Positions 14,265 through 40,497 of a stretch of DNA of 43,746 nt are shown piece after piece. The notes under the pieces were generated by a model, which was not told the DNA's origin, ran no database searches, and saw nothing but the letters and a program-made list of their open reading frames with translations. The position numbers and the translations under genes are program-made. Numbering within the stretch: position 1 is the first letter of the stretch; every line of letters begins with the position of its first letter. The stretch comes from Candidatus Micrarchaeaceae archaeon (GTDB lineage: Archaea > Micrarchaeota > Micrarchaeia > Micrarchaeales > Micrarchaeaceae). Location of the stretch: NCBI GenBank assembly GCA_027310755.1, contig DAIDAE010000003.1:1-43746 (forward strand). The letters run 5' to 3'.

Positions 14265-14300
14265 TTATATCGTTTATCCGATATCTATTATGCGATATAA
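14265..14300. promoter_or_regulatory. Candidate operator in front of the PadR-ABC operon
   Basis: TTATATCG-N20-CGATATAA ending 9 nt before the PadR start codon; TATA-like ctttatatatc lies just upstream on the minus strand. Confidence 0.7.
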
Positions 14301-14413
14301 GATATATAAAGATACCGTTTTTTATGAACCAAAAATTATGCGCGGCGCTTGCGGCGGCCGAATTCAACGGAAGGAATGCGAGTCTTTAAATAAATATGAT
14401 GTTACTTCTGCAT

Positions 14414-15910
14414 ATGGCCGTTGAAAAGTACCATATGTTTATAGATGGGAAATGGGTCGATTCTTCCTCAAAGGAGACCTCTGATATAGTCAATCCTGCA
14501 ACTGAGGAGATCATTGCAAATGTGCCCCTCGGAACCAAACAGGATGCAAGGTCCGCCATAGATGCGGCACGCAAGGCATTTGATTCCGGTGTCTGGTCTG
14601 AGAAAACCCCTGCGGAGCGTTCGTCCATACTCTGGAGGATGGCAGATGTCGTTGAAAGCAACGCACTCCGCCTCGCCCAGCTTGAATCGAGGAACGTCGG
14701 CAAGACAATAAAATATGCCAGGGATTCAGACCTGCCGTTCATCATTGACAACCTCAGGTTCTTCTCCGGCGCAATACGCAACATGGACGGGAAGGCAGCC
14801 ATGAATTATTCTGGGCTCGGACTGAGCATGATAAAGAGGGAGCCGATAGGAGTTGTTGGGGCAATTGTCCCCTGGAACTATCCCCTTTACATTGCGGTCT
14901 GGAAAATCGCCCCTGCCCTTGCCGCCGGAAATACCATTGTAATAAAGCCGGCGTCGTATACTCCGCTGACCCTGCTCGAGTTCGCAAAACTTACCGAGAA
15001 ACTCCTTCCAAAGGGGGTGCTTAACGTAGTTACCGGCCCAGGAGATGTAATAGGATCTGAGCTTGCATTATCCAGCAAGGTCGACATGGTGGCGCTTACC
15101 GGCGATGTTTCCACCGGGAAGAAGATAATGCAGATGGGATCGTCCAACCTGAAAAAAGTCCATCTTGAGCTTGGAGGCAAGGCCCCTATGGTGATACTCC
15201 CCGATGCATCGGTTGACGCGGCGACGGAGGGCGCCATAGTCAGCGCATTCTGGAACACGGCGCAGGACTGCACAGCATCAACAAGGATATATGTGCACGA
15301 GTCAATGCACGACAAGTTCGTCTCTATGCTTGTAAAGAAGGCGGGCAAGATAAGGATTGGCGATCCGAGCAAGGAGAGCACGGATATGGGATCTTTAGTA
15401 TCGGCGAGGCAGCGCGATAGGACGGAGGAGTACGTTAGATCCGGCATAAAAGAGGGGGCAAAATTGGTATTCGGAGGCCACAGGCCAAGGTCAATGAAAA
15501 AGGGATTCTATTTCGAGCCGACGATCTTTGATGGCGTGACGCAGAAAATGAGGATATGCCAGGAGGAGATATTCGGTCCAGTCCTGTCAATCATCGAGTA
15601 CAAAAATGTTGACGAGGCCGTCGAAAAGGCGAACGATGTCATCTATGGCCTTGCGGCCTCGGTGTGGGGCAGGGACGTGAATCAGACCCTGGGCGTTGCC
15701 GGCAGGCTAAAGTTCGGCGAAGTCTGGATCAACGAGCATGGAATACTTGTAAGCGAAATGCCGCACGGGGGCTTCAGGCAGAGCGGATTCGGAAAGGATC
15801 TCTCCATGTATTCGCTGGAAGATTATACACAGATAAAGCACATATACGTCGACCAGACCGGGCTGGTCAGGAAGCCCTGGTATTATGTTGTCTACGGGGA
15901 CAAGGACTAG
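14414..15910 (+). CDS. Aldehyde dehydrogenase, gamma-aminobutyraldehyde dehydrogenase-like
   Basis: MAVEKYHMFIDGKWVDSSSKETSDIVNPATEE; VVGAIVPWNYPLY; LELGGKAP; catalytic Cys in NTAQDCTASTRIYV. Confidence 0.88.
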   Translation: MAVEKYHMFIDGKWVDSSSKETSDIVNPATEEIIANVPLGTKQDARSAIDAARKAFDSGVWSEKTPAERSSILWRMADVVESNALRLAQLESRNVGKTIKYARDSDLPFIIDNLRFFSGAIRNMDGKAAMNYSGLGLSMIKREPIGVVGAIVPWNYPLYIAVWKIAPALAAGNTIVIKPASYTPLTLLEFAKLTEKLLPKGVLNVVTGPGDVIGSELALSSKVDMVALTGDVSTGKKIMQMGSSNLKKVHLELGGKAPMVILPDASVDAATEGAIVSAFWNTAQDCTASTRIYVHESMHDKFVSMLVKKAGKIRIGDPSKESTDMGSLVSARQRDRTEEYVRSGIKEGAKLVFGGHRPRSMKKGFYFEPTIFDGVTQKMRICQEEIFGPVLSIIEYKNVDEAVEKANDVIYGLAASVWGRDVNQTLGVAGRLKFGEVWINEHGILVSEMPHGGFRQSGFGKDLSMYSLEDYTQIKHIYVDQTGLVRKPWYYVVYGDKD

Positions 15911-15922
15911 GCAGCCTGCGCT

Positions 15923-16213
15923 TTATCTATATTCATTCAACGCCAGGGCCAGCCTCTTAAAATTGGGCATAAATTCCTTTGTGAAGTAGGCAAGCTCAAG
16001 CTCCCCTTCATCATTTGTTTTTACAGCCAGCTTGCCGATGCAGAGGCCCTCTTCGATATACGCCCCCCTTATCTTATCCAGCCTTACCTCTATCTTTTCT
16101 TTTGCGGCGGCTACGCTAATCCCATCCCCATCAATCTCGATGAGTTCCCTTTCGAACTTGAGATTGTGGTCCAAATCCGTCCACAATCTGATTGTGGAAT
16201 TTTTCCGTTGCAT
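15923..16213 (-). CDS. Hypothetical protein
   Basis: 96-aa ORF in the gap between two ALDH genes. Confidence 0.55.
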   Translation of the reverse strand: MQRKNSTIRLWTDLDHNLKFERELIEIDGDGISVAAAKEKIEVRLDKIRGAYIEEGLCIGKLAVKTNDEGELELAYFTKEFMPNFKRLALALNEYR

Positions 16214-16296
16214 GGCTCAACACGCATTATAGTCATCACAGGTTTTAGCCCTATTAAGATATATAAAGATTTCATACCAACTAATTCTGTGTTCCA

Positions 16297-17670
16297 ATGA
16301 GGATACAGTCAATCAACCCGGCAACCGAGGAAATAAACGGGGAGTTCGAGACCCTTACCAGGGCCCAGGTCAAGAAGGTTGCCACTGACTCCAGGAAGGC
16401 ATTCCCTTCATGGAAATCCTTGGATGTATCTGAAAGGGCGGCCCTGTTATCCAAACTTTCAGGAATCCTAAAGCAAAAAAGCAAGGAATACGGCAAGCTG
16501 ATCACCCTTGAGATGGGCAAGCCGATAGGGCAAAGCATATCGGAAGTCGAGAAATGCGCATGGACCGCCGAATTTTTTTCCGAGAACGCGGAAAAATGGC
16601 TTGCAGATGAGCCAGTCCAGACCGATTACAAGAAGGCTATCGTGGCCCACCAGCCGCTCGGCGTCATACTCGGCATAATGCCATGGAATTTCCCGTTCTG
16701 GCAGGCGATGAGGTTTGCAATACCTGCTCTTGCTGCGGGCAACACTGCCATACTGCGCCATTCCAATGTATGCCCGATGTCAGCCCTTGCGATCGAGGAG
16801 TCCTTCAGGCTCTCTGGATTCCCTGACGGAGTGTTTCATACGATTGTGAGTGAGCATGATGCCGTTGACATGCTGATCAGGGGAAAGGGATTGGTGGACG
16901 GAGTTTCGCTTACGGGTTCCGTAGCGGCAGGGAAAAGGGTGGGCGCGCTTGCAGGTAAGAACATAAAGAAGCTGGTCCTCGAGCTCGGCGGCAGTGATCC
17001 GTTCATCGTTCTTGACGACGCCGACCTTTTAGTTACGTGTAAAGGCGCCTGCGACGGAAGGATGGTCAACTCCGGACAGAGCTGCATATGCTCAAAAAGA
17101 TTCATAGTTGTCGAGGAGAGAGCCGGGGAGTTTACGGACGGTCTGGTGGAGCAGATGAGGGGCCAGAGGATTGGCGATCCGCTTGATGGAAATACTGCTG
17201 TCGGTCCACTTGCAAGCGCACAGCAGTCGCAGAGCGTGGACAGGCAGGTAAAAGAATCGGTTGTCATGGGCGCAAAGATAATGTGCGGCGGGGAAAAAAA
17301 GCACATCAATGGAAAGGGATTCTTCTATGAGCCGACGGTGCTTGTGGATGTGAAGCCGGGAATGCCGGTTGCAAAAGAGGAGGTGTTCGGTCCTGTCGCA
17401 CCCATCATAATAGTGAAGAATGAGAAAGAGGCGATAAAGCTAGCGAACAGCACCAGATTCGGCCTTGGTGCAAGCGTGTGGACAAGAGACACTGAAAGGG
17501 GAGAGCGTGTTGCGCGCCAGATAGAGTCCGGCCAGGTGTTTGTCAACCATATAGTAGTGTCAGATCCAAGGATTCCTTTTGGGGGAATCAAGGATTCCGG
17601 TGTGGGCAGGGAGCTCTCCAGATATGGAATACTTGAGTTCACCAATACAAAGCCGATTCTGGTGGGCTGA
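16297..17670 (+). CDS. Aldehyde dehydrogenase, succinate-semialdehyde dehydrogenase-like
   Basis: INPATEEINGEFETLTRAQV; GVILGIMPWNFPFWQ; LELGGSDPFIVLDDADL; NSGQSCICSKRF; upstream TATA aagatatataaag. Confidence 0.9.
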   Translation: MRIQSINPATEEINGEFETLTRAQVKKVATDSRKAFPSWKSLDVSERAALLSKLSGILKQKSKEYGKLITLEMGKPIGQSISEVEKCAWTAEFFSENAEKWLADEPVQTDYKKAIVAHQPLGVILGIMPWNFPFWQAMRFAIPALAAGNTAILRHSNVCPMSALAIEESFRLSGFPDGVFHTIVSEHDAVDMLIRGKGLVDGVSLTGSVAAGKRVGALAGKNIKKLVLELGGSDPFIVLDDADLLVTCKGACDGRMVNSGQSCICSKRFIVVEERAGEFTDGLVEQMRGQRIGDPLDGNTAVGPLASAQQSQSVDRQVKESVVMGAKIMCGGEKKHINGKGFFYEPTVLVDVKPGMPVAKEEVFGPVAPIIIVKNEKEAIKLANSTRFGLGASVWTRDTERGERVARQIESGQVFVNHIVVSDPRIPFGGIKDSGVGRELSRYGILEFTNTKPILVG

Positions 17671-17728
17671 GCGTCCGATCATACCCTCTGGGTTTTTCAC
17701 GCCCGCAGAGATTCCAGTCTCTTCCATT

Positions 17729-18844
17729 TCAGCTTACAGCGATTCCATGGAAGTTGTGAATGCTGAAATTCTGTATTATGTGCGGGTAGGAATTGTTTGT
17801 GAAGTTTGCTACAATCACATTTATCCTATTTGTCGAAGGCGAAGTCACGTAGAGGTATCCCCCTGAAGGACTGATTGCCAGGTCCGTCGGATACTGGCCT
17901 ACGCGAATGTCGTATACCGCAGGGTATGGCAATTCAGATAAGATGAGCATGGTCACGGTAGCGCCGCCCGTATCTGCAATAAACGCGGCCTGCCCATCGG
18001 GGCTTATGGTTATATTTGTTGGCTCAGACCCGGCTGTCAGGTTTATTGTTGAAACCAAGGTTTCCGTGCTGGTATTTATAATTGAAATCGAGTCGGATCC
18101 AGAATTTGAGACCAGCAGATAGGCGCCAGAGGGAGTTATTGTCAAGCCCGTCGGATCGACACCGACATTTATCGTGCTTGTCAAATTGGAACCTGCTCCA
18201 TTTACATTTATTACCGTGACCGTATCGCTCCTCGGGTTCGTCACGTATATTATACCGGAAGCAGGGGACGCCACCGCCCTCCATCCCGGAGATGAAAGAT
18301 TGTATGTGCGCACCAAATCGATGCTGGAGTTTAATTCATACAATTCTGGATAGGTTTTGCTTGTTGCGAGCAATCCGGCCACGCCATCCGTAATTAATCC
18401 CGGAGCACCTACTGTTGCAACTCCCCGTACATCATATGTAGTTGTGTTTATGCCGTAGACTGCACCGGTGCTGTCGTCCGCTACAAAAAGGGTCCCATAA
18501 TCCTGTGAAAGTGCAATATTCTGTGGTGAAACGCCGCTCATCGAGAATTGCAGCGTGTTGTACCCTGTAGTGGAATTTAGTATTGTTATATTCGCTCCTG
18601 AGAGAACATAGATCCTTCCGCCAGGCGGCGGCACGGTTTTTTCGATTGGTATGGTCGTGGTCGTTGTTTTCATTATCGTCGTATTTGTTGTGTTTCCATT
18701 GCCATAGATGAATATTGTTGTTGAATTCAGTGTGGAGCTGTTATTTGTGTTCTTGCCTGCGCCAGGCTGACCGAGCGCCATGACTATCAATATGCCCATT
18801 ATTGCGATAACCGCAACTATGAATATTTGTTTTGGTGTAGCCAT
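17729..18844 (-). CDS. YVTN-family beta-propeller surface protein
   Basis: Repeats such as INVGVDPTGLTITPSGAYLLVSNSGSDSISIINTSTETLVSTINL; N-terminal TM. Confidence 0.85.
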   Translation of the reverse strand: MATPKQIFIVAVIAIMGILIVMALGQPGAGKNTNNSSTLNSTTIFIYGNGNTTNTTIMKTTTTTIPIEKTVPPPGGRIYVLSGANITILNSTTGYNTLQFSMSGVSPQNIALSQDYGTLFVADDSTGAVYGINTTTYDVRGVATVGAPGLITDGVAGLLATSKTYPELYELNSSIDLVRTYNLSSPGWRAVASPASGIIYVTNPRSDTVTVINVNGAGSNLTSTINVGVDPTGLTITPSGAYLLVSNSGSDSISIINTSTETLVSTINLTAGSEPTNITISPDGQAAFIADTGGATVTMLILSELPYPAVYDIRVGQYPTDLAISPSGGYLYVTSPSTNRINVIVANFTNNSYPHIIQNFSIHNFHGIAVS

Positions 18845-18859
18845 TTCCCTCAGTACCCT

Positions 18860-19414
18860 TCAAAAGGTGGCATATACGGCGCTAGACATGTAGAGGACGA
18901 ACGCTATGAATATGATGGCCGCGGTTATCAAATAAAGATTCCTGTTTACCGCATAAACTTTTTTCTGCTCCTGCGACATGCTTGTCCTCCTGAAATCACC
19001 CACCTTTATCTCCACGAATGCTATCTCAGCCGCAAGGGATGCCAAGATGAAAACCAGGAAACCATAAAACTGTATGTTCTCGGTCGCAATCTGTATGGTT
19101 GTGGGCTTTGCTATCTGCAGGTTGAAAAAGGCCGCAGAGGTCATGGTTGCCATGTAGCCAACAAGCAGGAGAAAGAAAATCAGCAATCCACCCATCTTGA
19201 AGACATTGTCCCTGAAGACGTAGTAGGGCAGCAGGAAGGAAGTGCCCGCTGGCACAAAGATGAGCATCCATACGAGCAAAAGGCTCTGGTAGTGTGATAT
19301 TGCAGGTAGATCGGCTATTGTAGATCCAACGGCGAATCCGAAGAGTATTAGGAAGCACTGCAGCAGCACTATAAACCCCTTGCTCTGCAGGGGATTATTC
19401 GAATATATAGCCAT
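18860..19414 (-). CDS. Polytopic membrane protein, unknown
   Basis: About five hydrophobic segments. Confidence 0.6.
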   Translation of the reverse strand: MAIYSNNPLQSKGFIVLLQCFLILFGFAVGSTIADLPAISHYQSLLLVWMLIFVPAGTSFLLPYYVFRDNVFKMGGLLIFFLLLVGYMATMTSAAFFNLQIAKPTTIQIATENIQFYGFLVFILASLAAEIAFVEIKVGDFRRTSMSQEQKKVYAVNRNLYLITAAIIFIAFVLYMSSAVYATF

Positions 19415-19535
19415 ACATTATGGATAAAAAACTATAATTTAAATTGCTTTGCATGGGCTTCAATCCCTCCCAGAATCATCGGACATGACGGAGACAAAAA
19501 TTTAAATATGCTCATTACTATTCCCTTCTGTTTAC

Positions 19536-20996
19536 ATGAACAATGTTGAAAAAAGCAAGAATGGTACGCTTGGCCCGGACAAGAAGTTCAAGATGCAAAA
19601 ATCAATGCAACTATTTTCCGACGCGCTCAAGCTCATGCCCGGCGGCGTATCCTCCAATGCAAGGCTCTGGGAGACCGCGGTCTTCTGTCCCATATATACG
19701 CCGTGCACGATTTTTGCAAAAAACGCCAGAGGCTCCTATATTTGGGATGTGGATGGCAACAAGTATGTCGACTACAGGCTCGGTTTCGGTCCAGTAATAC
19801 TCGGGCACGGATATCCGGCGGTTACGAGGGCCGTGTCTGCGGCGGCAAGAAAGGGAACCATTTTTGCGCTGGACAACGAGCTTGAGGTTGACGTTTCACG
19901 GCAGATAATCGACATGGTGCCCTGCGCCGAGCTGGTGCGCTTCTCGGTGACGGGAACTGAAGCCACCATGCATGCGATAAGGGCGGCAAGGGCATACACC
20001 AATAAAGAAGTAATAGTCAAGTTTGAGGGGCATTATCATGGCGGCCATGATTATCTGCTATGGTCGACAAGCCCTCCGTATGATACCAGGGATAGGCCCT
20101 ACAAACAATCGATGGGAATTCCGGGTGCGATCAGGGATCTTGTGATGGTTGAGACCTGGAACAATTTCGAATCCATAGAAAAGACAGTGAAGGCAAACCA
20201 CAAGAAGATTGCTGCAATAATAACCGAACCAATAATGGGCAATGCGGCCGCGATAATGCCGAAGCCGGGATACCTAAAGCATCTCAAGGAGCTCTGCGAC
20301 AGGTACGATATAGTGCTAATATTCGACGAAGTTAAGACGGGATTTAGGGTTGCCAGAGGCGGCGCCCAAGAGTTCTTTGGGGTTACGCCTCATCTTGCGA
20401 CCTTTGCAAAGTCCATGAGCAACGGTTATCCAATATCGGCCATAACGGGTCAGGAAGAAATAATGAAGCTCTTCGGCCCGGGGAAGCATAAGGTCACCCA
20501 GGGAGGCACATACGCGAGCAATCCCCTTTCCCTCACCGCGACGAAGGCGACCCTGGAAGTTTTGAAGAATAGGGAGGTCTATGAGCGCATCAACGTGTTC
20601 GGAAAAAGATTAATGCGCGGGATTGAAAAGGTGCTGGACGGGAACGGCATAGACAACGTTGTACAAGGCCATCCATCAATGTTCCAGTATATAGCCACAA
20701 ACAATAGGGACATAATCTACAATTACAGGGAATTGAAGTCCAACTACCATGCGGACCTGTATGCGAAGGTGCAGTACTGGCTCATGACAAAGGGCGTCCT
20801 TTTGGATGAGGACAATCAGGAGTGCTTCTATGTATGCCTTTCGCATTCAAAGGAGAATGTGCTGAAACCGACCCTTGCCGCATTTGAAACGGCGGTAGAG
20901 AAGGCGCTCAACTCAAAATTCAAGATGCAAAGGTTCAAGTTGCCCGGAACCGAAAAGCTTTTGGCGCCAAGTGGGGGCAATCCCAACATTCCCTGA
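19536..20996 (+). CDS. Class III aminotransferase (glutamate-1-semialdehyde aminomutase-like)
   Basis: LMPGGVSSNARLW...YIWDVDGNKYVDYRLGFGPVILGHGYP...VKFEGHYHGGHDYLL...LIFDEVKTGFRVARGG...TFAKSMSNGYPISAITG. Confidence 0.9.
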   Translation: MNNVEKSKNGTLGPDKKFKMQKSMQLFSDALKLMPGGVSSNARLWETAVFCPIYTPCTIFAKNARGSYIWDVDGNKYVDYRLGFGPVILGHGYPAVTRAVSAAARKGTIFALDNELEVDVSRQIIDMVPCAELVRFSVTGTEATMHAIRAARAYTNKEVIVKFEGHYHGGHDYLLWSTSPPYDTRDRPYKQSMGIPGAIRDLVMVETWNNFESIEKTVKANHKKIAAIITEPIMGNAAAIMPKPGYLKHLKELCDRYDIVLIFDEVKTGFRVARGGAQEFFGVTPHLATFAKSMSNGYPISAITGQEEIMKLFGPGKHKVTQGGTYASNPLSLTATKATLEVLKNREVYERINVFGKRLMRGIEKVLDGNGIDNVVQGHPSMFQYIATNNRDIIYNYRELKSNYHADLYAKVQYWLMTKGVLLDEDNQECFYVCLSHSKENVLKPTLAAFETAVEKALNSKFKMQRFKLPGTEKLLAPSGGNPNIP

Positions 20997-21072
20997 GGGC
21001 AGTCAGGATATGAATGAATTTTCCACAAAAGCCTTAAATATTGTTTGAGTTCCTCCATTTTTGGCGTTGGCG

Positions 21073-21966
21073 ATGTTGGGCACGACCTCCGGGACAAATA
21101 GCGAATTGCTGTCGCAGAGAATCGACAGGCTCACCGCGGAGTCGCACATCCAGGCAAATAAAATGGAGCTGATCGGCCTGGGTGCGAGCGATGACGCGGT
21201 AAGGATTATGCTGGATAAGCCGCAAGTCCTGAAGGTGAACATCGCGGAGTTCGTCCGAAGGAACCCAGAACCAGTTAACAGCACATCCTCCCACGGCATA
21301 CTCGCGCATCTTCTTGCCGTTCACTCCCCGGATTGGGTCAAGAGGAGGCTGCTGGAGATACCGGAAGTGGTCAGGGAGCCAAACCTTATGGGCATAACCA
21401 CCGGCAAACTTGTGCTATACAGCTGCGGGCCGGATCTCAGGCTGGAAATACTTATGCTGCCCGAACTGCGCTCCAGGGTCGGTGAAAGCGAATACCGAAT
21501 AGCAATGCAGATCATAAATGCCCAGGAGAGGGAGGGCATGTACTATATTGCAAGGCAATACAGGCTCCTTTTGACAAAGGATAGGGACGACACCCTGCCG
21601 TCCAGCAAAAAAGACAGCGAGCTCATATGGCACTTCATCAGGGTTGCGCCAAAAGAGGTACTTAAAATATTTGCAGATGAGCTTCCGGTGGAAATGCTGA
21701 AACTGGCGAAGGTAGGATATGTCGGGGTCCAGACCGCTATGCAGGTAGCCACCATCGGCGTGCCATACTGCACCATTGCACCCACAAGATTCACGGTTCT
21801 GGATGCCATGACCAGAAGGTGCATAGAGCTTGACCTCCCGGAAGTTAGGAATGCGTTGGATGAAAGGCTCTGTCGTGCCAATGGCGGCTACGATATTGAG
21901 GAGCCCTCAACAACCGGCAGGGCCCTGGACCTCAGGAAACTGAGGGCGCTAAAATCAGTGAGATGA
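21073..21966 (+). CDS. Uncharacterised helical-repeat protein
   Basis: Open from TTG 21061; ATG at 21073. No recognised motif. Confidence 0.6.
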   Translation: MLGTTSGTNSELLSQRIDRLTAESHIQANKMELIGLGASDDAVRIMLDKPQVLKVNIAEFVRRNPEPVNSTSSHGILAHLLAVHSPDWVKRRLLEIPEVVREPNLMGITTGKLVLYSCGPDLRLEILMLPELRSRVGESEYRIAMQIINAQEREGMYYIARQYRLLLTKDRDDTLPSSKKDSELIWHFIRVAPKEVLKIFADELPVEMLKLAKVGYVGVQTAMQVATIGVPYCTIAPTRFTVLDAMTRRCIELDLPEVRNALDERLCRANGGYDIEEPSTTGRALDLRKLRALKSVR

Positions 21967-22017
21967 ACATTTTGTGCATGAGAAACTCCCGCTCACCACC
22001 TGTCAGGAGGATGATGG

Positions 22018-23175
22018 CTATCCGTTCCGCGTGAAGACCTTCATTCCCCTTTTCTTCAGCGCCCTGAAGAAGAGAGCCGGTCTTATGCATTGCTCCGGCG
22101 TTATTACACCACGTCCAAGCACCTGGCCCCTTGCTATCTCCTGCGCGACCACCGACGGCGGCACGCCGGTGTCCCACGAACCTGCAGGGATGTTATGCCT
22201 TTTGTTGGCAAAGGCCTGGCAGTAAAGTATGAGCCTCTTCCTCCTTCCTCGCGCGATCCCCTTTATTTCCACTCTCAGGAATTCGGTATCGTCCACCTTT
22301 GTCTTTGGGTTTGGCAGGAACCTGTTCAGCAGCGCTATCGAGATTTCGCGCGGAATCACCTTCTTCCTGCCGAGCATTACCTGTTTCTCTGAAGCAAAAC
22401 CCATCTCTATCAGGAATCTTGTCTGCTCTATGAATCTGGGGTCCCAGCCTCCCCTAAAGCTGCATTCCCTTATGCCCTTTTTGCGGAGCACGGATGGCAG
22501 ACTTGCAAGCTCCGAATGTAGCACCGGCCTGCATAGCACCCTGCCCACTGGCTTCGGGAACTCGATATGCCTGGCATCCTCCAGCGGCTTCACAAATTTT
22601 ATCCTCCCCTTCAGCAGCATGGCAGGTTTTTTGGTGAACTCATCGAATACAGTCTGCATCGAATAAGGGACAACGAAGGGCTGTTCGTATTGCGTATAGT
22701 CCTTGTCCGCAAATGCGATGTCCAGAGAATTTATCCTGTCAAATCTCCTCGCCCCGTATTCCGCAAGAACGTTTGTTATCCCAGGAGTAGAGCCGCATCC
22801 GAGCACCGCAACAAGATCCTTTTCCTTAAATTGCCTATGCAGTTTCAACTGCCTTTTTGTCATATGATACAGGCCGCCAAGGTCCACATAATTGACGCCG
22901 TTTGCAAGCGCCTGTCTCATCACTTCGAGGTTGAAATAGTAATTTGTTGCGTTTATCAGCACCGTTGCGCCCTTCAACACACTTCTCATCTGCGCCTTGT
23001 TTGCGGAATTTGCCTGAACCCCCGTAATATTTTTCCTGTGGAATGAGCTAGCAAACTTCACCGCCTTTTCCCTGTCTCTCCCCGCCACAAGCACATCCCC
23101 CCTGAAGGTGGTGGACAGGTCTGTCACTATCACCCTTCCCATTTCGCCATAGCCGCCAAGAACAACTATCCTCAT
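22018..23175 (-). CDS. Saccharopine dehydrogenase-like NAD(P)-binding protein
   Basis: MRIVVLGGYGEMGRVIVTDL...VLVAGRDREKAVKFA...ALANGVNYVDLGGLYHMTKRQLKL. Confidence 0.85.
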   Translation of the reverse strand: MRIVVLGGYGEMGRVIVTDLSTTFRGDVLVAGRDREKAVKFASSFHRKNITGVQANSANKAQMRSVLKGATVLINATNYYFNLEVMRQALANGVNYVDLGGLYHMTKRQLKLHRQFKEKDLVAVLGCGSTPGITNVLAEYGARRFDRINSLDIAFADKDYTQYEQPFVVPYSMQTVFDEFTKKPAMLLKGRIKFVKPLEDARHIEFPKPVGRVLCRPVLHSELASLPSVLRKKGIRECSFRGGWDPRFIEQTRFLIEMGFASEKQVMLGRKKVIPREISIALLNRFLPNPKTKVDDTEFLRVEIKGIARGRRKRLILYCQAFANKRHNIPAGSWDTGVPPSVVAQEIARGQVLGRGVITPEQCIRPALFFRALKKRGMKVFTRNG

Positions 23176-23216
23176 GATGTAGACATGTCTGGGAACGCAT
23201 TAAAATCTTTCCAAGA

Positions 23217-24149
23217 TCAGGAGTAGGGCATTGCGTTATATCCTTTGTCGACAAGGTTTGCAGCCAGGTCCAATCTGTTGGAACCGTACGTAAGCACGTT
23301 TTTTGCGCCGCTTGTATCTATATAATCCATGCACTGCTTGAAATCCGCATGGTCGCTGAGCGGGAACTGGATGTCGGTATTGAACTTCATCATTTTTGCG
23401 AAACCCGTCGCCACGGCCGTATAGACTTTTTTGTTGTAGAGCTCTGAAAGTGTGATTTTCATGTTGTTTAGAAGGCTGTTTTCAACCACGCCAACAAAAT
23501 TTCCTTTCAGAAGTTTGTGGTAATCATCGTTGTTTTCGTATGCCGATGCATAATCGAGTTTTACCCCGTTCTTTTGATAAATTCTGTTGACCCTGCTTAC
23601 CTTCTTGCTGACCACTGGCAATATGCCTTTCTCATTGAGTATGGCGATAAGCTCCTGCGCCTTTCCGAGCGCGTATGTTCCGAAGAGGACTATGCCGTCG
23701 TTGAGCTTTAAGTCGGTCCAGTATTGTATCGCATCTTCAACCTCCGCCCTATCATCGAACGTCACGTCCGGCTGGTAATAAGTGGAATCCATTATGATCG
23801 TATCGGCATTTTCTATCTCAATCTTTTCGCATGTCCTGGATTTTTGCATTTGGAAATCCCCCGTATACACCATTTTGGTGCCTGCATTTTCATCATTTAT
23901 GACTATCTGTTTCGATCCAAGTATGTGCCCCGCATTTATCATCTTCAGGAAATCGGGGGTGCCAACATCCTGCTGCGGCTCTATTTCGTTGATTGCGAGG
24001 AGCAGGTCCTTCGTGGTACCACTGGCAAGCATCCTTTTTGATGATTTGGCCGCAGAGATGTGGTCCGAGTGCGCATGGGAGACAAAATCTATGTTGGATC
24101 CATTTTCACGCCTGTCCAATGAGAGGGAATACTCGCCAATCTGTATCAT
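23217..24149 (-). CDS. Metallo-beta-lactamase fold nuclease/exonuclease-like protein
   Basis: FVSHAHSDHISA; NAGHILGSKQIVI; MVYTGDFQM; FPLSDHADF. Confidence 0.82.
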   Translation of the reverse strand: MIQIGEYSLSLDRRENGSNIDFVSHAHSDHISAAKSSKRMLASGTTKDLLLAINEIEPQQDVGTPDFLKMINAGHILGSKQIVINDENAGTKMVYTGDFQMQKSRTCEKIEIENADTIIMDSTYYQPDVTFDDRAEVEDAIQYWTDLKLNDGIVLFGTYALGKAQELIAILNEKGILPVVSKKVSRVNRIYQKNGVKLDYASAYENNDDYHKLLKGNFVGVVENSLLNNMKITLSELYNKKVYTAVATGFAKMMKFNTDIQFPLSDHADFKQCMDYIDTSGAKNVLTYGSNRLDLAANLVDKGYNAMPYS

Positions 24150-24219
24150 CCAGTCGCCATTACTGCATAGAAAGGAAGTTATTTAAGGGTTAATCTTCAC
24201 TTTACTTTGTTCTGATTGC

Positions 24220-29221: not shown

Positions 29222-29224
29222 CCT

Positions 29225-30454: not shown

Positions 30455-30561
30455 TCCAACAAATTTATTTGTTGCGGCAATGTCCGCTCCCTGCGCGAGC
30501 CTGCCTTGCCAGTTATATAGAGCCCTTTTATAGCTACCTCCCTATAATTATGCGATGGTAA

Positions 30562-30852: not shown

Positions 30853-30893
30853 TCAAACATCATATTTTAGGCGATGGTTTTGCAGGTATTGCT

Positions 30894-31331: not shown

Positions 31332-31404
31332 ATCCTATTCACCTCTAGCTAAGTTTTTATTTATTTGCATACAAGTTAACACATGGCAACTATCTATATG
31401 GATA

Positions 31405-32184
31405 GTGAAAAGGGTTTTCATGTTTAGCTTACTGATGGTTCTATTGCAGGTAGCCAATCCGGCCCAGGTATACGTCACCGCTGGGTCTGTATATACAGAG
31501 AACACTATTACAGTGCTCATTGAAATATTTACCATCCTCGCTATATCAATGCAGATAGCCAGAGGCTACTTCCTAAGGATACTCAGAAAATTCACCCTGA
31601 GGCTTGCCGCCGATATCTGGTGGCTACTGTTCATTCTGTTGAGGGACGCCAGCATATTCATAGTCCTGTTCCTGGGGTTTTCGCTCTTCTGGCCAGGCAC
31701 ATACCTTGATTATCCGATCGCGGTGCCATGGCAGCTTCTCGCAATAGACTTCTACGCCTTTGCCCTGGTCTTGCTGCTCGTGAAGGACACTGACGAGGAT
31801 CCCAAGTACAACAAGTTGCTCACCATATTCATTCTCATAGGTACCTTCCTGTATCTGATAGGCACGGTGTTCGTGACAGAGAGCGCCCTTGCCCTCTCAA
31901 CCCCTCCCCCAACCGTGTCAAACTCGCTGGGCAACATATGGGGTCTTTTCTATAATGTATTCGATTCACAGCAGAATCCTGCGCTCGCAATATATTCATT
32001 CTATGTCTGCTTTGCGCTTTTGTTAGGCGCCGGTGCTATAGCGATAAACTCGTCCTTCAGGAGCGGAGCCAATCTGGCCAAGCAGGATATACAGACAAGC
32101 CCCAAGCCAACCATAAAGATGCCGTCACCACCGCCGGTCGCCCCGGGTACAAAGCAGCAGCAAGGCGATGACGATGCCGTATAA
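31405..32184 (+). CDS. Polytopic membrane protein, unknown
   Basis: Several TM segments and a Pro-rich cytosolic tail; possible start ATG 31420. Confidence 0.6.
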   Translation: MKRVFMFSLLMVLLQVANPAQVYVTAGSVYTENTITVLIEIFTILAISMQIARGYFLRILRKFTLRLAADIWWLLFILLRDASIFIVLFLGFSLFWPGTYLDYPIAVPWQLLAIDFYAFALVLLLVKDTDEDPKYNKLLTIFILIGTFLYLIGTVFVTESALALSTPPPTVSNSLGNIWGLFYNVFDSQQNPALAIYSFYVCFALLLGAGAIAINSSFRSGANLAKQDIQTSPKPTIKMPSPPPVAPGTKQQQGDDDAV

Positions 32185-32617
32185 GTTTACATTCGACAAG
32201 GGGGTTTGCATACAGTGCGGGATGTGCGGGGATGTCTGCCCGGTGAATACCCTTGATTTTACCAGGCCCGCCCATAAGAATATCGAAGACGACAGATACA
32301 ATGCGGATGATGCGGTCGGGGACATGACAGAATACCCAATACAGGTGAACAGGTGCATCGGATGCATGATATGCCAAGAGGAATGTCCAGTTTCATGCAT
32401 AACAATCCTTAGCTCTGATAAAGAGCCGAATTACGCGCAGATTCAGGGCCCGATGCGCACGGAAGAGCCAACGAAAGACACATTTGAATTATCTAAATAC
32501 ACAAAATTGAGACCCACAAGGGCGAAAGTGCGGGATCCCTGGGGCCACGAATACGTATACATACCAAAAAGGAGGAAATCACAGACGGAAACTGTGGATG
32601 AAAGCGACATGAGGTAA
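32174..32617 (+). CDS. 2[4Fe-4S] ferredoxin-like protein
   Basis: CIQCGMCGDVCPVNTLDF and CIGCMICQEECPVSCITI. Confidence 0.9.
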   Translation: MPYKFTFDKGVCIQCGMCGDVCPVNTLDFTRPAHKNIEDDRYNADDAVGDMTEYPIQVNRCIGCMICQEECPVSCITILSSDKEPNYAQIQGPMRTEEPTKDTFELSKYTKLRPTRAKVRDPWGHEYVYIPKRRKSQTETVDESDMR

Positions 32618-32710
32618 CGCGCCACTAGCTTGCGATTCCCGTCCACCATTTTGCGCGCATATAAAAATATAAATAGGCAGTCATACATCCATTAATCGAG
32701 CCCCAATCTT

Positions 32711-34006
32711 GTGGTACTGATGAAAAGAAATGCGATGAAGCTCGGTGGACGATCTATAGAAAAAGCGGCGCTGTCCGAATTCAGCAAGCACAAAGGGGTG
32801 ATCCAGATTGTGGGCAAGGTCAGGGTCAAGACCCTGGGCGATCTTGCCACCTACTACACTCCGGGAGTATCGTATCCGCCACTCAGGATAAGGGAGGACA
32901 AGGCGCTAACGTATGAGTACACCGGAAAGGGAAACAGGATAGGCATCCTGTCGGACGGGTCCAGGATACTGGGGCTGGGGAACATAGGCCCGGATGCCGG
33001 ACTGCCGGTCATGGAGGGCAAATCGTTGCTCTTCAAGAAATTCGGCGACATAGACGCGCTGCCGCTTCCAATAAATGCCCACGGCGTTGACGAGATGGTC
33101 TCGTTTGCAAAGGCCATCGAGCCGGTTATAGGCGGCATAAACATAGAGGATGTGTCAAGCCCGAACTGCTTTACGCTTTATGACAGATTGCAGAAAGAGC
33201 TCGGCATCCCAGTATTTCATGATGACAGGCACGGGACCGGAGTCGTTGCAGACGCGGCACTGAGAAATGCGATGAAGCTGGTGAAAAAAGACGTGAGGAA
33301 AGCGAAAATAGTGATTAATGGGCTGGGCTCCGCCGGCATCGGTGTGGCGGAGATAATACTTGCCGCCGGATCAAGGAACCTCGTGATGTGCGATACACGG
33401 GGCATACTATATAAGGGAAGGAGGGACAACATGAACGGGCTGAAACAGAGGATCGCAGAACATACCAATCACAATGGAATGAAGGGGCAGCTCCAGGACG
33501 CGGTGAAGGATGCTGACGTGCTGATAGGGCTTTCGGTTCCCGGCGCTTTCAAATCAAGTTTCATAAAGGCGATGGCGGACAAGCCGATCGTTTTTGCGCT
33601 GTGCAATCCGTATCCGGAGATGAGATATGATGAGGCCAGGAAGGCCGGCGCATACATAGCAGCCACCGGCGAGAGCGGTGTTCCAAACCAGGTGAACAAC
33701 ATGCTAGCCTTTCCCGGGATATTCAGGGGCATTCTTGATGTGCGGGCAAGGAAAATAAATCCCACCATGCTTCTTGAGGCGAGCAGGGCCCTTGCGCACA
33801 GCGTAAAAAGGCGTGCGAGGGAGCATATAATCCCCAATTTCGTGGATGACGACATAATATCGATCACCGCCGACATAGCCGCCGCCGTTGCCGGCGCAGC
33901 GATAAAAACCGGGGTTGCAAGAAGAAAAATGGACCCGGACAGGGTCAGGAGGGATACGAAGGAAAGGCTTGAGCGCTATTCAAGGTTGGAGAAAGCGGCA
34001 ACGTGA
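32711..34006 (+). CDS. Malic enzyme (malate dehydrogenase, oxaloacetate-decarboxylating)
   Basis: YTPGVSYPPLRIREDK; ILGLGNIGPDAGLPVMEGKSLLFKKFGDIDALP; FHDDRHGTGVV; INGLGSAGIGVAEIIL. Confidence 0.94.
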   Translation: MVLMKRNAMKLGGRSIEKAALSEFSKHKGVIQIVGKVRVKTLGDLATYYTPGVSYPPLRIREDKALTYEYTGKGNRIGILSDGSRILGLGNIGPDAGLPVMEGKSLLFKKFGDIDALPLPINAHGVDEMVSFAKAIEPVIGGINIEDVSSPNCFTLYDRLQKELGIPVFHDDRHGTGVVADAALRNAMKLVKKDVRKAKIVINGLGSAGIGVAEIILAAGSRNLVMCDTRGILYKGRRDNMNGLKQRIAEHTNHNGMKGQLQDAVKDADVLIGLSVPGAFKSSFIKAMADKPIVFALCNPYPEMRYDEARKAGAYIAATGESGVPNQVNNMLAFPGIFRGILDVRARKINPTMLLEASRALAHSVKRRAREHIIPNFVDDDIISITADIAAAVAGAAIKTGVARRKMDPDRVRRDTKERLERYSRLEKAAT

Positions 34007-34485
34007 TGCCGCAGTGCAAGCGCCCTTTTTACCATTCTTATCATTTCGTTCTTTTTAACGAACTCGTTTGTGAAGCGCTCCCCCTCCTTCAGCTCGTTGA
34101 AGCTCGCCCACCGGTAATCCGCATTCTCCATGTCAAGCCTCACCGTTCTGGTTCTTGAGATGAACACGAAGACCATGTTGTTCCATCTATCGCTAGGTTT
34201 TTTTACATTGATGAGCGTCATCATCTTCGGCCTGCTGGCCAGCCTAAGATCGGATCCATCTATTCCGGTTTCCTCTCTGACTTCCCTGTATGCCGTCTCC
34301 AGGTACGTTTCCCCCTCTTCTCTCCTGCCTCCCACGAAGGTCCATATTCCGGGATTGATTATGAACGGCACATTCCTCCTCTTCAAGAGCAGTACCCTCC
34401 CCCCGTTTACGATTATGGCTTTGGCCCCGTCCCGCTTCCTGTTTTCCCAAAGCTTTTGCCCGCCATCTACCGGAATTTTCATCAA
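33976..34485 (-). CDS. NUDIX hydrolase
   Basis: Nudix box GGRREEGETYLETAYREVREETGIDG. Confidence 0.93.
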   Translation of the reverse strand: MMKIPVDGGQKLWENRKRDGAKAIIVNGGRVLLLKRRNVPFIINPGIWTFVGGRREEGETYLETAYREVREETGIDGSDLRLASRPKMMTLINVKKPSDRWNNMVFVFISRTRTVRLDMENADYRWASFNELKEGERFTNEFVKKNEMIRMVKRALALRHHVAAFSNLE

Positions 34486-34532
34486 GTCATTATAACAAAG
34501 CCTTATTAAATATTAAATGTCATTTTTCAAGC

Positions 34533-36275
34533 ATGGAGGTACTTGAGTATGACATAGTCATACTTGGAAGCGGGCTGGCGGGCATGCGCGCCGCGCTTCA
34601 GGCCGCAAAAGCATCCAACGACCAGCTTAGAATAGCCCTCGTTTCGAAACTGCACGCGATGAGGAGCCACTCCGTGTCTGCGGAGGGAGGGATTTCCGGG
34701 GTGCTCTATTCCGGCCAGCACGGAGACAGCGTAGACCTCCACGGATATGACACGGCCAAGGGCTCTGATTTTCTCGGGGACCAGGATGCGATCGAGCTTC
34801 TGGTGAACCACGCGCCAAGCGAAATAAAACTCTTTGACCATCTCGGAGTGCCGTGGAACAGGGACAAGAGCGACAAAATAACACTCAGGGCCTTTGGCGG
34901 GATGAGCGTGCCCAGGACCGCATTCGCCGGCGATAAGACCGGCTTTTTCATGCTGAGCGCCCTCTACGACAGCCTGCTCAGCTTCAGCAACATAAAGATA
35001 TTCCACGAGCACATAGCGACAAAATTGATAATTGAGAAGAAACAGTTCAGGGGGCTCGTTGCGATGGACATGGCAACCGGCGAAATGAAAGCCTTCGTCT
35101 CAAACGCAGGAATAATCGCAACCGGCGGCTTCGGGAGATCATACGGATTCACAACCACGTCATACTCAAGCACCGGGGACGGCCATGCGCTCGCGTATGA
35201 GGCCGGGCTCCCCCTAAAGGACATGGAGTTCATCCAGTTCCATCCGACGGCGCTCATACCGAGCGGGATACTTATAACCGAAGCCGCCAGGGGAGAGGGG
35301 GCATACCTCCTCAATTCGGACGGCAAGAGGTTCATGGAAAACTATGCAAAGAGCAAGATGGAGCTCGCACCCAGGGATATAGTGTCACGGTCTATCATAA
35401 CGGAGATTGAGGCGGGGAGGGGCATCAAGGACGAACGGTTCGGCGACACGGAATTCGTGTATCTGGACATGAGGCACCTTGGCGAGGCCAAGATCAATGA
35501 AAGGCTTCCAAACATAAAGGAGATAGCGATAAAGATGATCGGCATAGATCCGTCGGACGCCCCGCTTCCCGTGAAGCCGGCGTGCCATTTTACCATGGGC
35601 GGCATCCATACCAATATAGACGGCAATGTGATCTCCGGCCCGAAAGGCGTGATAGTCGGATTATGGGCTGCCGGTGAATGCGGTTGCGTGAGCGTACATG
35701 GCGCGAACAGGCTCGGGAGCAATTCGCTAAGCGAATGTGTCATATGGGGCAAGATCACGGGGAACGCCGCCGCCAGGCTTGCGTCCAAGGGGAGGCCCGT
35801 TAGCGACGAGGTGATAAAAAACACGCTCGCCGCGGAGGAGAAAAGGATCATCTCCATGATCGAAAGCGACGGGAAGGAGAACCCCTACGACATAAGGAGG
35901 GATCTTTGGCGCACTATGGACGCAAAGGTCGGGGTTTACAGGGATGCGAAGGCATTGACGGAAGCGGTCCACGAGATAGGGGCGCTGCAAAAGCGATTCG
36001 CGCACATAGGGCTTGGGGACAAAGGCAGGGTCTATAACACCAATCTCAAGGACACCCTGGAGATCTGGAACATGCTGTTGCTCTCGCGGGCGGTTGCCGA
36101 ATGCGCACTCAACCGCAGGGAGTCAAGGGGGGCGCATTCGAGGAAAGAGTACCCGAAGCGCGATGACAAGAACTGGCTGAAGCACACAATAGTGACGCTG
36201 GGCGATGACAAAAATAAAATAACCTACGGTAAGGTTAAGATCACGAAATGGCAGCCGGAAGAAAGGAAATACTAG
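34533..36275 (+). CDS. sdhA: Succinate dehydrogenase/fumarate reductase flavoprotein subunit
   Basis: YDIVILGSGLAGMRAALQA; SHSVSAEGGISG; FHPTALIPSGILITEAARGEGAYLLN; HFTMGGIHTNIDG. Confidence 0.95.
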   Translation: MEVLEYDIVILGSGLAGMRAALQAAKASNDQLRIALVSKLHAMRSHSVSAEGGISGVLYSGQHGDSVDLHGYDTAKGSDFLGDQDAIELLVNHAPSEIKLFDHLGVPWNRDKSDKITLRAFGGMSVPRTAFAGDKTGFFMLSALYDSLLSFSNIKIFHEHIATKLIIEKKQFRGLVAMDMATGEMKAFVSNAGIIATGGFGRSYGFTTTSYSSTGDGHALAYEAGLPLKDMEFIQFHPTALIPSGILITEAARGEGAYLLNSDGKRFMENYAKSKMELAPRDIVSRSIITEIEAGRGIKDERFGDTEFVYLDMRHLGEAKINERLPNIKEIAIKMIGIDPSDAPLPVKPACHFTMGGIHTNIDGNVISGPKGVIVGLWAAGECGCVSVHGANRLGSNSLSECVIWGKITGNAAARLASKGRPVSDEVIKNTLAAEEKRIISMIESDGKENPYDIRRDLWRTMDAKVGVYRDAKALTEAVHEIGALQKRFAHIGLGDKGRVYNTNLKDTLEIWNMLLLSRAVAECALNRRESRGAHSRKEYPKRDDKNWLKHTIVTLGDDKNKITYGKVKITKWQPEERKY

Positions 36276-36282
36276 TTATCCG

Positions 36283-36588
36283 TTATTTCGAATACTGTCT
36301 AGCATATGTTCCAATCACTGGCATTTCAACGTCCTTGCCCTCATACGCCTGATAGCCTATGTATAGTCCGTAGAGCCAACCGAGCAATTCGATTATCCAG
36401 CCCACGATGGGAATCCATCCTATGATAAAGAGCACCACACCAAGGAATATTGCCTGTAGTGCGTGGAACTTCGCCCTTTTATCATTCTGGCCCACGGTAA
36501 TGAACACTATCAATCCGCTTAGCCATGTCAATAGGTAGGCGAATATGTAGGCCAGACCGTTACCCCTCCTGTTTTGTTTCATTTCCAT
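36283..36588 (-). CDS. Small membrane protein (DUF4870/Tic20-like)
   Basis: TM pairs, FHALQAIFLGV and IPIVGWIIELLGWLYGLYIGYQAYEGKDVEMPVIG. Start at MEMKQN. Confidence 0.7.
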   Translation of the reverse strand: MEMKQNRRGNGLAYIFAYLLTWLSGLIVFITVGQNDKRAKFHALQAIFLGVVLFIIGWIPIVGWIIELLGWLYGLYIGYQAYEGKDVEMPVIGTYARQYSK

Positions 36589-36655
36589 AGTAACACCATG
36601 ATGGTTAGTAATGGGTAGCAAGCCTTAAAACCCTTGCCAGATATGTTTGTTTCAT

Positions 36656-37069
36656 ATGGAAAAGAAGACCTACGACATGCGGGGCAAACAGGCAAATATA
36701 GCAAGACTGTGGCGTTTCGACAAGGAAGGGTTCGTCCACATGGTCGCATACAGGGCCCTGATATTCTATTCAATACCATACGGAATCCTTCTCATCGCAT
36801 CGCTCTTTTACTCCAACCTGGCGCCGTACACCGGCCTGCTGACCGCAATATTCTGGATATTGATAACGCCGCAGCTATACGAGACAGCCAAGGCATTTTC
36901 TTTGATATCTTCAAAAGGGCTGGCTTTCGGGCACCTGAGCGAAGGATACGTTTATCTCTCAAAATCAAAGTATTCGCGGACCGGGACCCTCTATAAACCG
37001 ATACCATACATAGCCATGATCCTTTGGCTAGCCGGCTTTGTGGCATTGCTGCTCTGGTGGAGAATATGA
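36656..37069 (+). CDS. Putative SDH membrane anchor subunit (SdhC-like by position)
   Basis: About three TMs; ATGA overlap with the next gene; between sdhA and sdhB. Confidence 0.5.
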   Translation: MEKKTYDMRGKQANIARLWRFDKEGFVHMVAYRALIFYSIPYGILLIASLFYSNLAPYTGLLTAIFWILITPQLYETAKAFSLISSKGLAFGHLSEGYVYLSKSKYSRTGTLYKPIPYIAMILWLAGFVALLLWWRI

Positions 37070-37254
37070 GCGCGTTCAAGTCCATGGCATTCTTTTATGG
37101 AGCGTTGGCCGCAGTGCCGATAATGCTTTGGATGATTGCAATTACATCGCCGTATCCACAGTTCCACCTGCTCAGGGTGGCGTTCGCAGCGCTTTCCGGT
37201 GCCGGCGCGATATTGTTCGGGCTTATAGGATTCAATGAGGTATTCCATGGATAG
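37066..37254 (+). CDS. Putative SDH membrane anchor subunit (SdhD-like by position)
   Basis: MSAFKSMAFFYGALAAVPIMLWMIAIT...; two TMs; overlaps the sdhB start. Confidence 0.5.
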   Translation: MSAFKSMAFFYGALAAVPIMLWMIAITSPYPQFHLLRVAFAALSGAGAILFGLIGFNEVFHG

Positions 37255-37990
37255 CAGGAACCAGAGAAAGACCACCATAACGGTGCATTCCTTCGATGGG
37301 AGGAGCGAAAGCTTCAAGGAGAAGCGCTATGACATAGATTCCGGCAGTTTCACCACGGTCCTTGACGCGCTGATAAGGATAAAGGAGACGATCGACCCCT
37401 CGCTTTCCTTCAGGTACAGCTGCAGAATGGGGATATGCGGCTCGTGCGCCATGGTGATAGACGGGAAGCCGAGCCTTGCGTGCGAAACAAAGATATCCGA
37501 TCTCAATGTGACCGGCAAGGGGATCGACGTGCGGGCGATGCAGGGCCATCCGCTGCTTAAAGGGCTTGTTACGGACTTTGACGATTTCTTCCAGAAGCAC
37601 AAGGAGGTCTTTCCATGGATAATAAGGCACAATATCAGCGACAAATACGATGACACCGAGGCCTACCACCAGACGGACAAGCAAATAAACAAGTTCCTGC
37701 CGTTCGCCGAATGCATAAAATGCGGCCTGTGCATAGACGCGTGCCCGGTGGCGAACACCAACAAGGACTTTATGGGCCCCCAGGCCCTTTCACAGGCCTA
37801 CAGGTACATCGCGGATTCAAAGGACCAGGGAAGAAAATACAGGGTTGAGGCGCTTGACACGCTGGATGGGGCATGGGGATGCGAATTCTCCGGTTCATGC
37901 TCAAAAGTTTGCCCGAAATCCGTGGATCCCGCCCTCGCGATACAGCTCCTAAAAGTCGACATCGCCAAATATCGCTTGATAGAGAAATGA
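37247..37990 (+). CDS. sdhB: Succinate dehydrogenase/fumarate reductase iron-sulfur subunit
   Basis: YSCRMGICGSCAMVIDGKPSLAC; CIKCGLCIDACPVAN; CEFSGSCSKVCPKSVDP. Confidence 0.95.
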   Translation: MDSRNQRKTTITVHSFDGRSESFKEKRYDIDSGSFTTVLDALIRIKETIDPSLSFRYSCRMGICGSCAMVIDGKPSLACETKISDLNVTGKGIDVRAMQGHPLLKGLVTDFDDFFQKHKEVFPWIIRHNISDKYDDTEAYHQTDKQINKFLPFAECIKCGLCIDACPVANTNKDFMGPQALSQAYRYIADSKDQGRKYRVEALDTLDGAWGCEFSGSCSKVCPKSVDPALAIQLLKVDIAKYRLIEK

Positions 37991-37994
37991 TAGC

Positions 37995-39386
37995 ATGGCA
38001 AAATTCAGGATAGAAAAGGATTTCCTCGGCGGCGTGAAGATTCCCGCAGAGGCATATTACGGGGCTGAGACGCAGAGGTCCATGAACAATTACGACATCT
38101 CCGGGCAGTCGATCCCTGCCACGTTCATAAGGCATTACGCGATGATAAAAAGGTCCGCCGCGCTCGCGAACATGAAGCTAGGCAAGCTCAATGAAAGAAA
38201 AGGGCGGGCGATAGTCAGGGCATGCGATGAGATAATAAAGGGTAAGCTCGCAGAGCAGTTTAACATAGACTACTTCCAGTCCGGGGCCGGGACCAGCGTG
38301 AACATGAACCTGAATGAAGTCATAGCGAACAGGGCGCTCGAGATAATCGGGAGCAAAAAAGGGGATTATAGGGTAATACACCCGAACGATGACGTCAACA
38401 TGTCCCAGTCTACAAATGATACATACCATGCATGCATGCATCTCACGGTTTATTCCGAATTGACCGAGGCGCTCTTGCCGGCGCTCGAATCGCTGCAGAA
38501 GGCCCTGGATAAAAAGGCGCATGAATTCTCAAACGTGGTCAAGACCGGAAGGACGCACCTGCAGGATGCCGTGCCAATAACACTCGGCCAGGAATTTTCC
38601 GGATACGCATCCTCCGTGGGCAGGCAGATAAAGAACATAAAGAACAGCTCCGATAAGCTCCTCGACATATCCCTGGGGGGAACCGCGGTCGGTACCGGGA
38701 TAGAGGCATCAAAGGGCTATTCGTACGCAGTTGCAGGCGAACTCAGGAAATACACAAAATACAGGTTCAGGCTCGCAAGGAACTTTTTCGACATACAGCA
38801 GAACCAGGACGAGGAGGGATGGGTGAGCAGCTCGCTTCGCGACCTTGCCGTTGCGTTGAACAAGATATCAAACGACCTGCGGCTTATGAATTCGGGCCCG
38901 GCGTCCGGATTTGGCGACATAACGCTCCCTGCCGTGCAGCCCGGCTCATCGATAATGCCCGGCAAGGTGAATCCGAGCATGGCGGAGATGCTCAATATGG
39001 TCTGTTTCCAGGTCATCGGCATGGATACCACCGTAAGCTACTGCGCGGAGAGCGGCCAGCTGGAGCTCAATGTTTATATGCCCCTCATAGCGTACGACCT
39101 CCTGTATTCGATAAGGATACTTTCCAATGCAGTGAATACCTTTACGACAAGATGCGTAGCCGGCATCAAGGCGAACAGGGAAAGGATGGGCAGGAATGTC
39201 AGCATGGATATGTCCCTTGCGACCGCGCTCGCCCCGTTCATAGGGTATGAAAGGGCCGCGAAGATAGCGAGAAAAGCGCTAAAGGAGGGGAAAAGCGTGA
39301 AGGAGGTATGCATGGAGCTCAAGATAATGCCCGAAAGGGATCTTAACAGGATACTCAATCCCAGAAAGCTCACGAGAAGGAAATGA
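37995..39386 (+). CDS. Class II fumarase/aspartase superfamily lyase
   Basis: FRIEKDFLGGVKIPAEAYYGAETQRSMNNY; SVNMNLNEVIANRA; GSSIMPGKVNPSMAEM. Confidence 0.9.
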   Translation: MAKFRIEKDFLGGVKIPAEAYYGAETQRSMNNYDISGQSIPATFIRHYAMIKRSAALANMKLGKLNERKGRAIVRACDEIIKGKLAEQFNIDYFQSGAGTSVNMNLNEVIANRALEIIGSKKGDYRVIHPNDDVNMSQSTNDTYHACMHLTVYSELTEALLPALESLQKALDKKAHEFSNVVKTGRTHLQDAVPITLGQEFSGYASSVGRQIKNIKNSSDKLLDISLGGTAVGTGIEASKGYSYAVAGELRKYTKYRFRLARNFFDIQQNQDEEGWVSSSLRDLAVALNKISNDLRLMNSGPASGFGDITLPAVQPGSSIMPGKVNPSMAEMLNMVCFQVIGMDTTVSYCAESGQLELNVYMPLIAYDLLYSIRILSNAVNTFTTRCVAGIKANRERMGRNVSMDMSLATALAPFIGYERAAKIARKALKEGKSVKEVCMELKIMPERDLNRILNPRKLTRRK

Positions 39387-39403
39387 CCCTGCGGGGCACC
39401 AGA

Positions 39404-39715
39404 TCAGATATCTATCCAGAGCTCCCCGTCCTGCTCGGTTATTTTGTAGGTGTTCTGGCGCGGCCCCCACGATGTCCTTGGATCTCCCGCTCCAGTCCTA
39501 ACGTCATAGAGGGCGCCATGCCAGGGACATTCTACAATATAATCGGTCAGCTTTCCCTTTTCCAGCGGCCCGCCCCTGTGCGAGCAAGCGCTTTCCAGCG
39601 CGTAGATGTTGCCGTCTATCATTACAAGCATGACCTTCTTGCCATTTGCGGTAACCCCCACCGGCTTCCTGTCGGTCAAATCTGCCTTCTTCAACTCCAG
39701 CTTAACACCAGCCAT
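39404..39715 (-). CDS. Rieske-type [2Fe-2S] ferredoxin
   Basis: CSHRGGPLEKGKLTDYIVECPWHGALYD. Confidence 0.93.
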   Translation of the reverse strand: MAGVKLELKKADLTDRKPVGVTANGKKVMLVMIDGNIYALESACSHRGGPLEKGKLTDYIVECPWHGALYDVRTGAGDPRTSWGPRQNTYKITEQDGELWIDI

Positions 39716-39849
39716 GAATTACTATATTTGCTTAAATCTAAAAACTGATATGATATGATGGAACAGGCCCAAGTACGGCTTCGCACCCAATTGATAGCCG
39801 AATTTAACCCTGTGTTTATAAACCTGATCTTGCTTATCGTATTTGCTGT

Positions 39850-40407
39850 GTGATGTCCGCTTCGGGAAGCATGGAAGCAATTGAGCGTGCACACATGGCG
39901 TGCAGTCACATGATGATATGTATGCTGAAGCTCATAGTCGAATTGTTTGTCATATTGCTTGTCGTGTACGCTGTGCTGTACGCGATAGAGCCGACATGGG
40001 CACATCGCATACTAAATGCCGTCCTCGGGACGAAATTGAACATGACCACCACGACAATAACGATACCATATGCGGGGATCCAGCATGCATATGTCAATGG
40101 AACAATCCAGAGCACTAGCTATGTGTTCTCAAATGACACTGTGCTATACATAAAAGGGGAAAACAACAAAATAATAGTAATGGAGCGTCAGGCCGGCGTA
40201 AGCATACCGGTGTTGTACGTGAATATGACCGGGAGCGGCGATTCGCTGACAATAAAAAACGGGTTCGTGGTCCTTAACATATGGGGCAGCGCCGATTCAA
40301 TCATGCTCTACAATTCAACACTGCTGAGCTCCAACCTGCACGGGGGCGGCGACCACATATACAACGAGAGCGCAAGCGGCAACCAGACCATTTATAACTC
40401 CACGTAG
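39850..40407 (+). CDS. Membrane-anchored surface protein, beta-rich
   Basis: N-terminal TM (LIVELFVILLVVYAVLYAI), N-X-S/T-rich exterior. Confidence 0.55.
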   Translation: MMSASGSMEAIERAHMACSHMMICMLKLIVELFVILLVVYAVLYAIEPTWAHRILNAVLGTKLNMTTTTITIPYAGIQHAYVNGTIQSTSYVFSNDTVLYIKGENNKIIVMERQAGVSIPVLYVNMTGSGDSLTIKNGFVVLNIWGSADSIMLYNSTLLSSNLHGGGDHIYNESASGNQTIYNST

Positions 40408-40461
40408 TAAATGGGTTCGACATCCGATGCACAAAAAGGAACGCCAACTTTCAAAATATAT

Positions 40462-40497
40462 TTATATCGGACCATTTATCTATGTATACCGATATAA
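40462..40497. promoter_or_regulatory. Candidate operator in front of the copper operon
   Basis: TTATATCG-N20-CGATATAA (TTATATCGG-N18-CCGATATAA), following an AT-rich TATA-like aaatatat and ending 11 nt before ATG 40509. Confidence 0.7.

Follow-up and report, generated by a model that had tools for sequence, protein, structure and literature searches.

YqjI-type PadR proteins are metal-sensing and carry an extended His-rich N-terminus. For LmrR and PadR the motif ATGT-N8-10-ACAT, with a spacing of 8-10 bp, has been described (PMC3506622), and archaeal copper ATPase operons are regulated by CopR/CopT, in which an Lrp-type HTH is combined with a TRASH domain (PMC7830388). The promoter of the padR gene analysed here likewise fits this layout of inverted 4-bp half-sites, TATC-N8-GATA occurring twice. 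An earlier note on the window, by which the whole 43.7-kb stretch of DNA is meant (contig C33 of an assembly of 869,511 bp in 62 contigs, ~90% complete), had proposed that this PadR autorepresses its ABC exporter operon and, through the same operator, also controls a copper export operon. Autorepression is strongly supported by comparative footprinting, and it is likely that 14268-14297 is the PadR auto-operator and that the dyad of the copper promoter is a different element with common outer half-sites.

The padR-ABC operon and its probable operator

The padR gene (13776..14255, minus strand) encodes a protein of 159 aa with a PadR winged helix and a charged N-terminal extension, which at 50.5 bits against a PF03551 cut-off of 27 (E 2.1e-13) belongs to the PadR family and in which no TRASH domain was found. 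On the same strand lie the genes of a DrrA-like ABC transporter ATPase (12671..13666; PF00005, PF13732) and an ABC-2 type membrane protein (11902..12666; PF01061). The closest PadR relatives are up to 72% identical, and the nearest named ones belong to metagenome assemblies of Candidatus Micrarchaeota (three in one named-genome scan). Few His residues occur in the N-terminal extension of the PadR encoded here, its His/Met signal being weak compared with relatives. Strongly His/Met/Gly-rich PadR N-termini were observed at L020, L110, L113, L115 and L116, most of them with the same operator type, and such N-termini suggest metal sensing by these relatives.

The exact pattern TTATATCG-N20-CGATATAA was confirmed at 14265-14300 and 40462-40497, with no other copy in the window, and forms the only exact pair in the 0.87-Mb genome. 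As had been noted, each site directly follows a TATA-like stretch, and the distance from its end to the ATG is 9 nt in one case and 11 nt in the other. At up to three mismatches the shuffled window gave 0.17 matches. The genome scan with the full pattern that the earlier note had suggested returned these two sites alone at 0-2 mismatches, the next best match in the whole assembly having 3, and the reversed control gave 0 matches at up to one mismatch; all genome-wide counts in the assembly are from pattern searches. Allowing none or one mismatch, the 36-bp pattern was found in none of 59 relatives.

The predicted PadR auto-operator TATCGCATAATAGATATCGGATAAACGATA (14268..14297, minus strand), delimited by comparative evidence, reads TATC-N8-GATATC-N8-GATA and consists of two TATC-N8-GATA dyads that are offset by 14 bp and so overlap, the central GATATC being common to both. 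No further TATC-N8-GATA dyad occurs in the window, and the full operator was found once in this genome. It is adjoined by a TATA-box-like element, TTTATATAT (14303..14311, minus strand), recognised from its sequence and similar in relatives. The extra internal CCGATATC half-site that had been attributed to the PadR copy does exist, but it represents the operator's conserved centre and is missing from the copper copy. Weak PadR-type matches occur on C31 and C10, and none of the stretches seen upstream of the other PadR-type genes (C1, C22, C31, C10) contained the operator.

Conservation of the operator among PadR relatives

PadR relatives were gathered by protein similarity alone and their upstream DNA was then read. 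A recurring architecture, TATCG-nATAATA-GATATC-GnATAAn-CGATA, was found, and there too a TATA-like stretch stands directly before the operator. Among 16 such genes 13 had 0-2 of the 14 fixed positions mismatched, against a shuffle mean of ~5, at distances of about 10-110 nt upstream, the 13 including L020 with a doubtful site at 215 nt; the other three, among the more diverged, lacked the pattern. The arms described earlier are thus conserved in part, the TATCG/CGATA core being kept at orthologous PadR promoters but the outer TTA/TAA ends not.

Of the 164 genomes of the order that were searched by DNA alone, 24, from 16 of 54 genera, contained the exact operator pattern; some of the 24 are closely related and not all are independent, and the reversed control gave no match in the 164 genomes. 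A PadR-family gene lies directly downstream at 24 of 24 fetched operator loci and at a second site in G061, and in the 164 genomes the operator in full was found only ahead of padR genes. The exact occurrence, the empty control and the constant PadR gene downstream together strongly support autorepression of the padR-ABC operon. Three genomes (G107, G108 and G145; loci L100, L101 and L108) have a third dyad at the 14-bp period, which supports TATC-N8-GATA as the unit. Many operator loci, though not all, have an ABC ATPase gene after PadR, and in relatives an ABC-2 type membrane protein follows the ATPase; in some relatives other genes are found downstream of PadR in place of the ABC ATPase. 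A methyltransferase-like gene, not an ABC exporter, was seen downstream of PadR in L013, L023 and L113.

That the operator is conserved and goes together with PadR is established by comparison of genomes; the steps of repression are modelled on what is known of the PadR family. A PadR dimer would recognise TATC-N8-GATA, and at the two dyads, which overlap by the TA of the common GATATC, two dimers would probably lie side by side. They would cover the transcription start just 3' of the TATA box and so block transcription of padR and of the genes for the ABC exporter, which would resume once a ligand frees the dimers. The operator sequence and its tandem layout are worth recording: they provide PadR regulators of an uncultured DPANN lineage with an operator code that is defined at the level of sequence and can be tested.

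The copper promoter and its possible regulators

The copper operon (plus strand) encodes a heavy-metal-binding-domain protein (HMBD) of 34 aa (40509..40613; PF19335, E 4.6e-12) and a YHS-domain P1B-type ATPase (40782..42848). CPC, YN and MxxSS motifs are the Cu+ signature of P1B ATPases, and they are found here at 332, 638 and 670, which places the enzyme in the P1B-1 Cu+ type. Downstream of the ATPase, at 43094-43746 on the minus strand, a PIN-domain protein and a small upstream ORF look like a toxin-antitoxin pair of the VapBC type.

The dyad TATCG-N20-CGATA of the copper promoter (40465..40494, plus strand; 9-bp arms at 40462-40470 and 40489-40497) has only the outer arms in common with the PadR operator. 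TATCTA replaces the central GATATC, the interior TA steps are absent, and there is no complete TATC-N8-GATA, one TATC-N10-GATA being present inside; the claim that the same operator stands at both sites therefore fails. A weight matrix made from the relatives' operators, this genome's own operator left out, gave the PadR site a score of 38.4 and the copper site one of 1.2, with -0.3 for the best unrelated site, so that the copper site does not fit the PadR operator model as a member of one regulon. Equivalent arms were not found upstream of copA in the relatives' fetched loci (copA 67-74% identical), a set in which no very close relative shares the HMBD-copA operon and its promoter, nor was the copper-side site found in relatives with both PadR and copA (G011, G048, G049, G054 and others). 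Control of the copper operon by this PadR is consequently not supported, yet it is unproven and not refuted; the case shows that a regulon claim can fail even where two 36-bp sites look exactly alike. In L040 (G011, same genus) a different repeat, GTTCATT...AATGAA-like, lies upstream of copA, which suggests yet another regulator there.

A second PadR group, seen in a neighbourhood scan near copA in relatives, joins the PadR helix to a C-terminal CxCEIYKGG...CC..C segment that resembles the metal-binding TRASH domain (PadR-TRASH), PF03551 scoring above its cut-off and TRASH PF24273 below (E ~1e-4). Thirty of these genes were fetched (L141-L170). For 25 of them the flanking DNA contains a match to copA, two (G059, G023) have copA 1.5-2 kb away on the same contig and three lie at loci cut by contig ends. 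In most fetched loci the gene is directly upstream of copA (in L141, for example, at ~1501-1920). Most PadR-TRASH promoters have TATATCAT-N3-ATGATATA in common, and the 16 exact occurrences of this pattern in the order all coincide by coordinates with PadR-TRASH genes. A PadR-type copper regulator thus probably exists in these archaea, as another protein with another operator. In the genome studied (~90% complete) neither a PadR-TRASH gene nor this pattern was found.

That the arm match is a coincidence in AT-rich promoter DNA, with the TATA box supplying TTATAT, appears somewhat unlikely. The core TATCG-N20-CGATA has 3 exact matches in the genome, 1 of them within an ORF, and at up to one mismatch its 18 matches against 25 in the control are at background. 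The third exact match, at C7:12824, was rejected on account of its overlap with an open frame of 239 codons. Among 139 promoter-like upstream regions, 15 contain exact dyads whose arms measure at least 8 bp, and the 9-bp inverted repeat of the copper site is unusual among the promoters of these genomes without being extreme. Against coincidence, 8+8-bp arms are expected at any promoter of the genome at ~1e-4 and the conserved 5+5 core at ~0.02, by Markov models of TATA-bearing upstream regions with ~700 promoters assumed; these figures are after the fact, the match having been picked on reading the window and its left arm overlapping the TATA element. The 7+7 form TATATCG-N20-CGATATA has only 4 matches in 301 genomes of the phylum, two here, one over open reading frames and one in an ambiguous setting. 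The arm resemblance is probably not pure accident, yet not a PadR operator, and the improbability of an exact 8+8-bp coincidence makes a weak or different operator at the copper site conceivable.

An operator of this kind could be weak and belong to PadR itself, which would then repress the copper ATPase operon from this weaker site in addition to its ABC operon. The identical arms, spacing and promoter position, with their low chance expectation, and the rarity of the 7+7 form speak for this, as do the lack of the PadR-TRASH regulator and its operator in this genome and the N-termini of several PadR relatives, whose His/Met residues could bind metal; the TATC-N10-GATA within the site has a spacing reported for some PadRs (PMC3506622). 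The missing N8 dyad, centre and interior TA steps, a matrix score at background, the absence of the site at relatives' copA even where both genes are present, and the restriction of the full operator to padR genes stand against it, and a single regulon is considered unlikely; copper export under this PadR is possible but unproven. A tentative alternative, to be taken with some reserve, is that the copper dyad serves as operator for a different regulator, one with TATC/GATA-like half-sites that functionally replaces the PadR-TRASH sensor. Relatives do have a separate copper regulator with its own operator beside copA, the 9-bp arms here lie over the expected transcription start, and at least two further PadR-type proteins (C1, C22) are encoded in the genome; but no TRASH-domain regulator above cut-off was found in this ~90% complete genome, no regulator gene was seen beside copA, and the dyad is not conserved. 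Distinctly improbable is a wider scheme in which PadR-type helices with TATC/GATA half-sites would be general metal-efflux controllers of Micrarchaeota, many relatives having PadR-TRASH at copA, and in which the ABC-exporter PadR would here have taken over the copper operon by a re-spaced site after loss of PadR-TRASH. The preferred reading, a PadR operator at 14268-14297 and a different element at the copper promoter, does not account for the improbable exact arm match.

Comparison with known systems

The PadR-TRASH proteins are the more interesting lead and, if their role at copA is true, would represent an architecture for copper sensing that differs from the Lrp-based CopR. The TRASH metal sensor of CopR/CopT is like that of the relatives' PadR-TRASH fusions, but their HTH is of the Lrp/AsnC type, unlike PadR, and searches of this genome found neither CopR nor PadR-TRASH. 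In the literature searched, no paper contained both 'PadR' and 'TRASH domain', and nothing relevant was found on copper-responsive PadR proteins. The likeness to YqjI-type regulators lies in the extended His/Met-rich N-terminus of several relatives, whereas in the window's own PadR this extension contains few His residues.

With LmrR, PadR and bcPadR1 the present system has in common the PadR winged helix and the position of the gene beside an efflux operon that it probably controls. As here, PadR-family autorepressors have an inverted repeat spaced by ~8 bp in their own promoter (PMC3506622), and the 4-N8-4 geometry is equal. The half-sites differ, being TATC/GATA here and ATGT/ACAT in LmrR, PadR and bcPadR1, and the Micrarchaeota operator is further set apart by its archaeal TATA promoter, in which two or three dyads overlap with a period of 14 bp.
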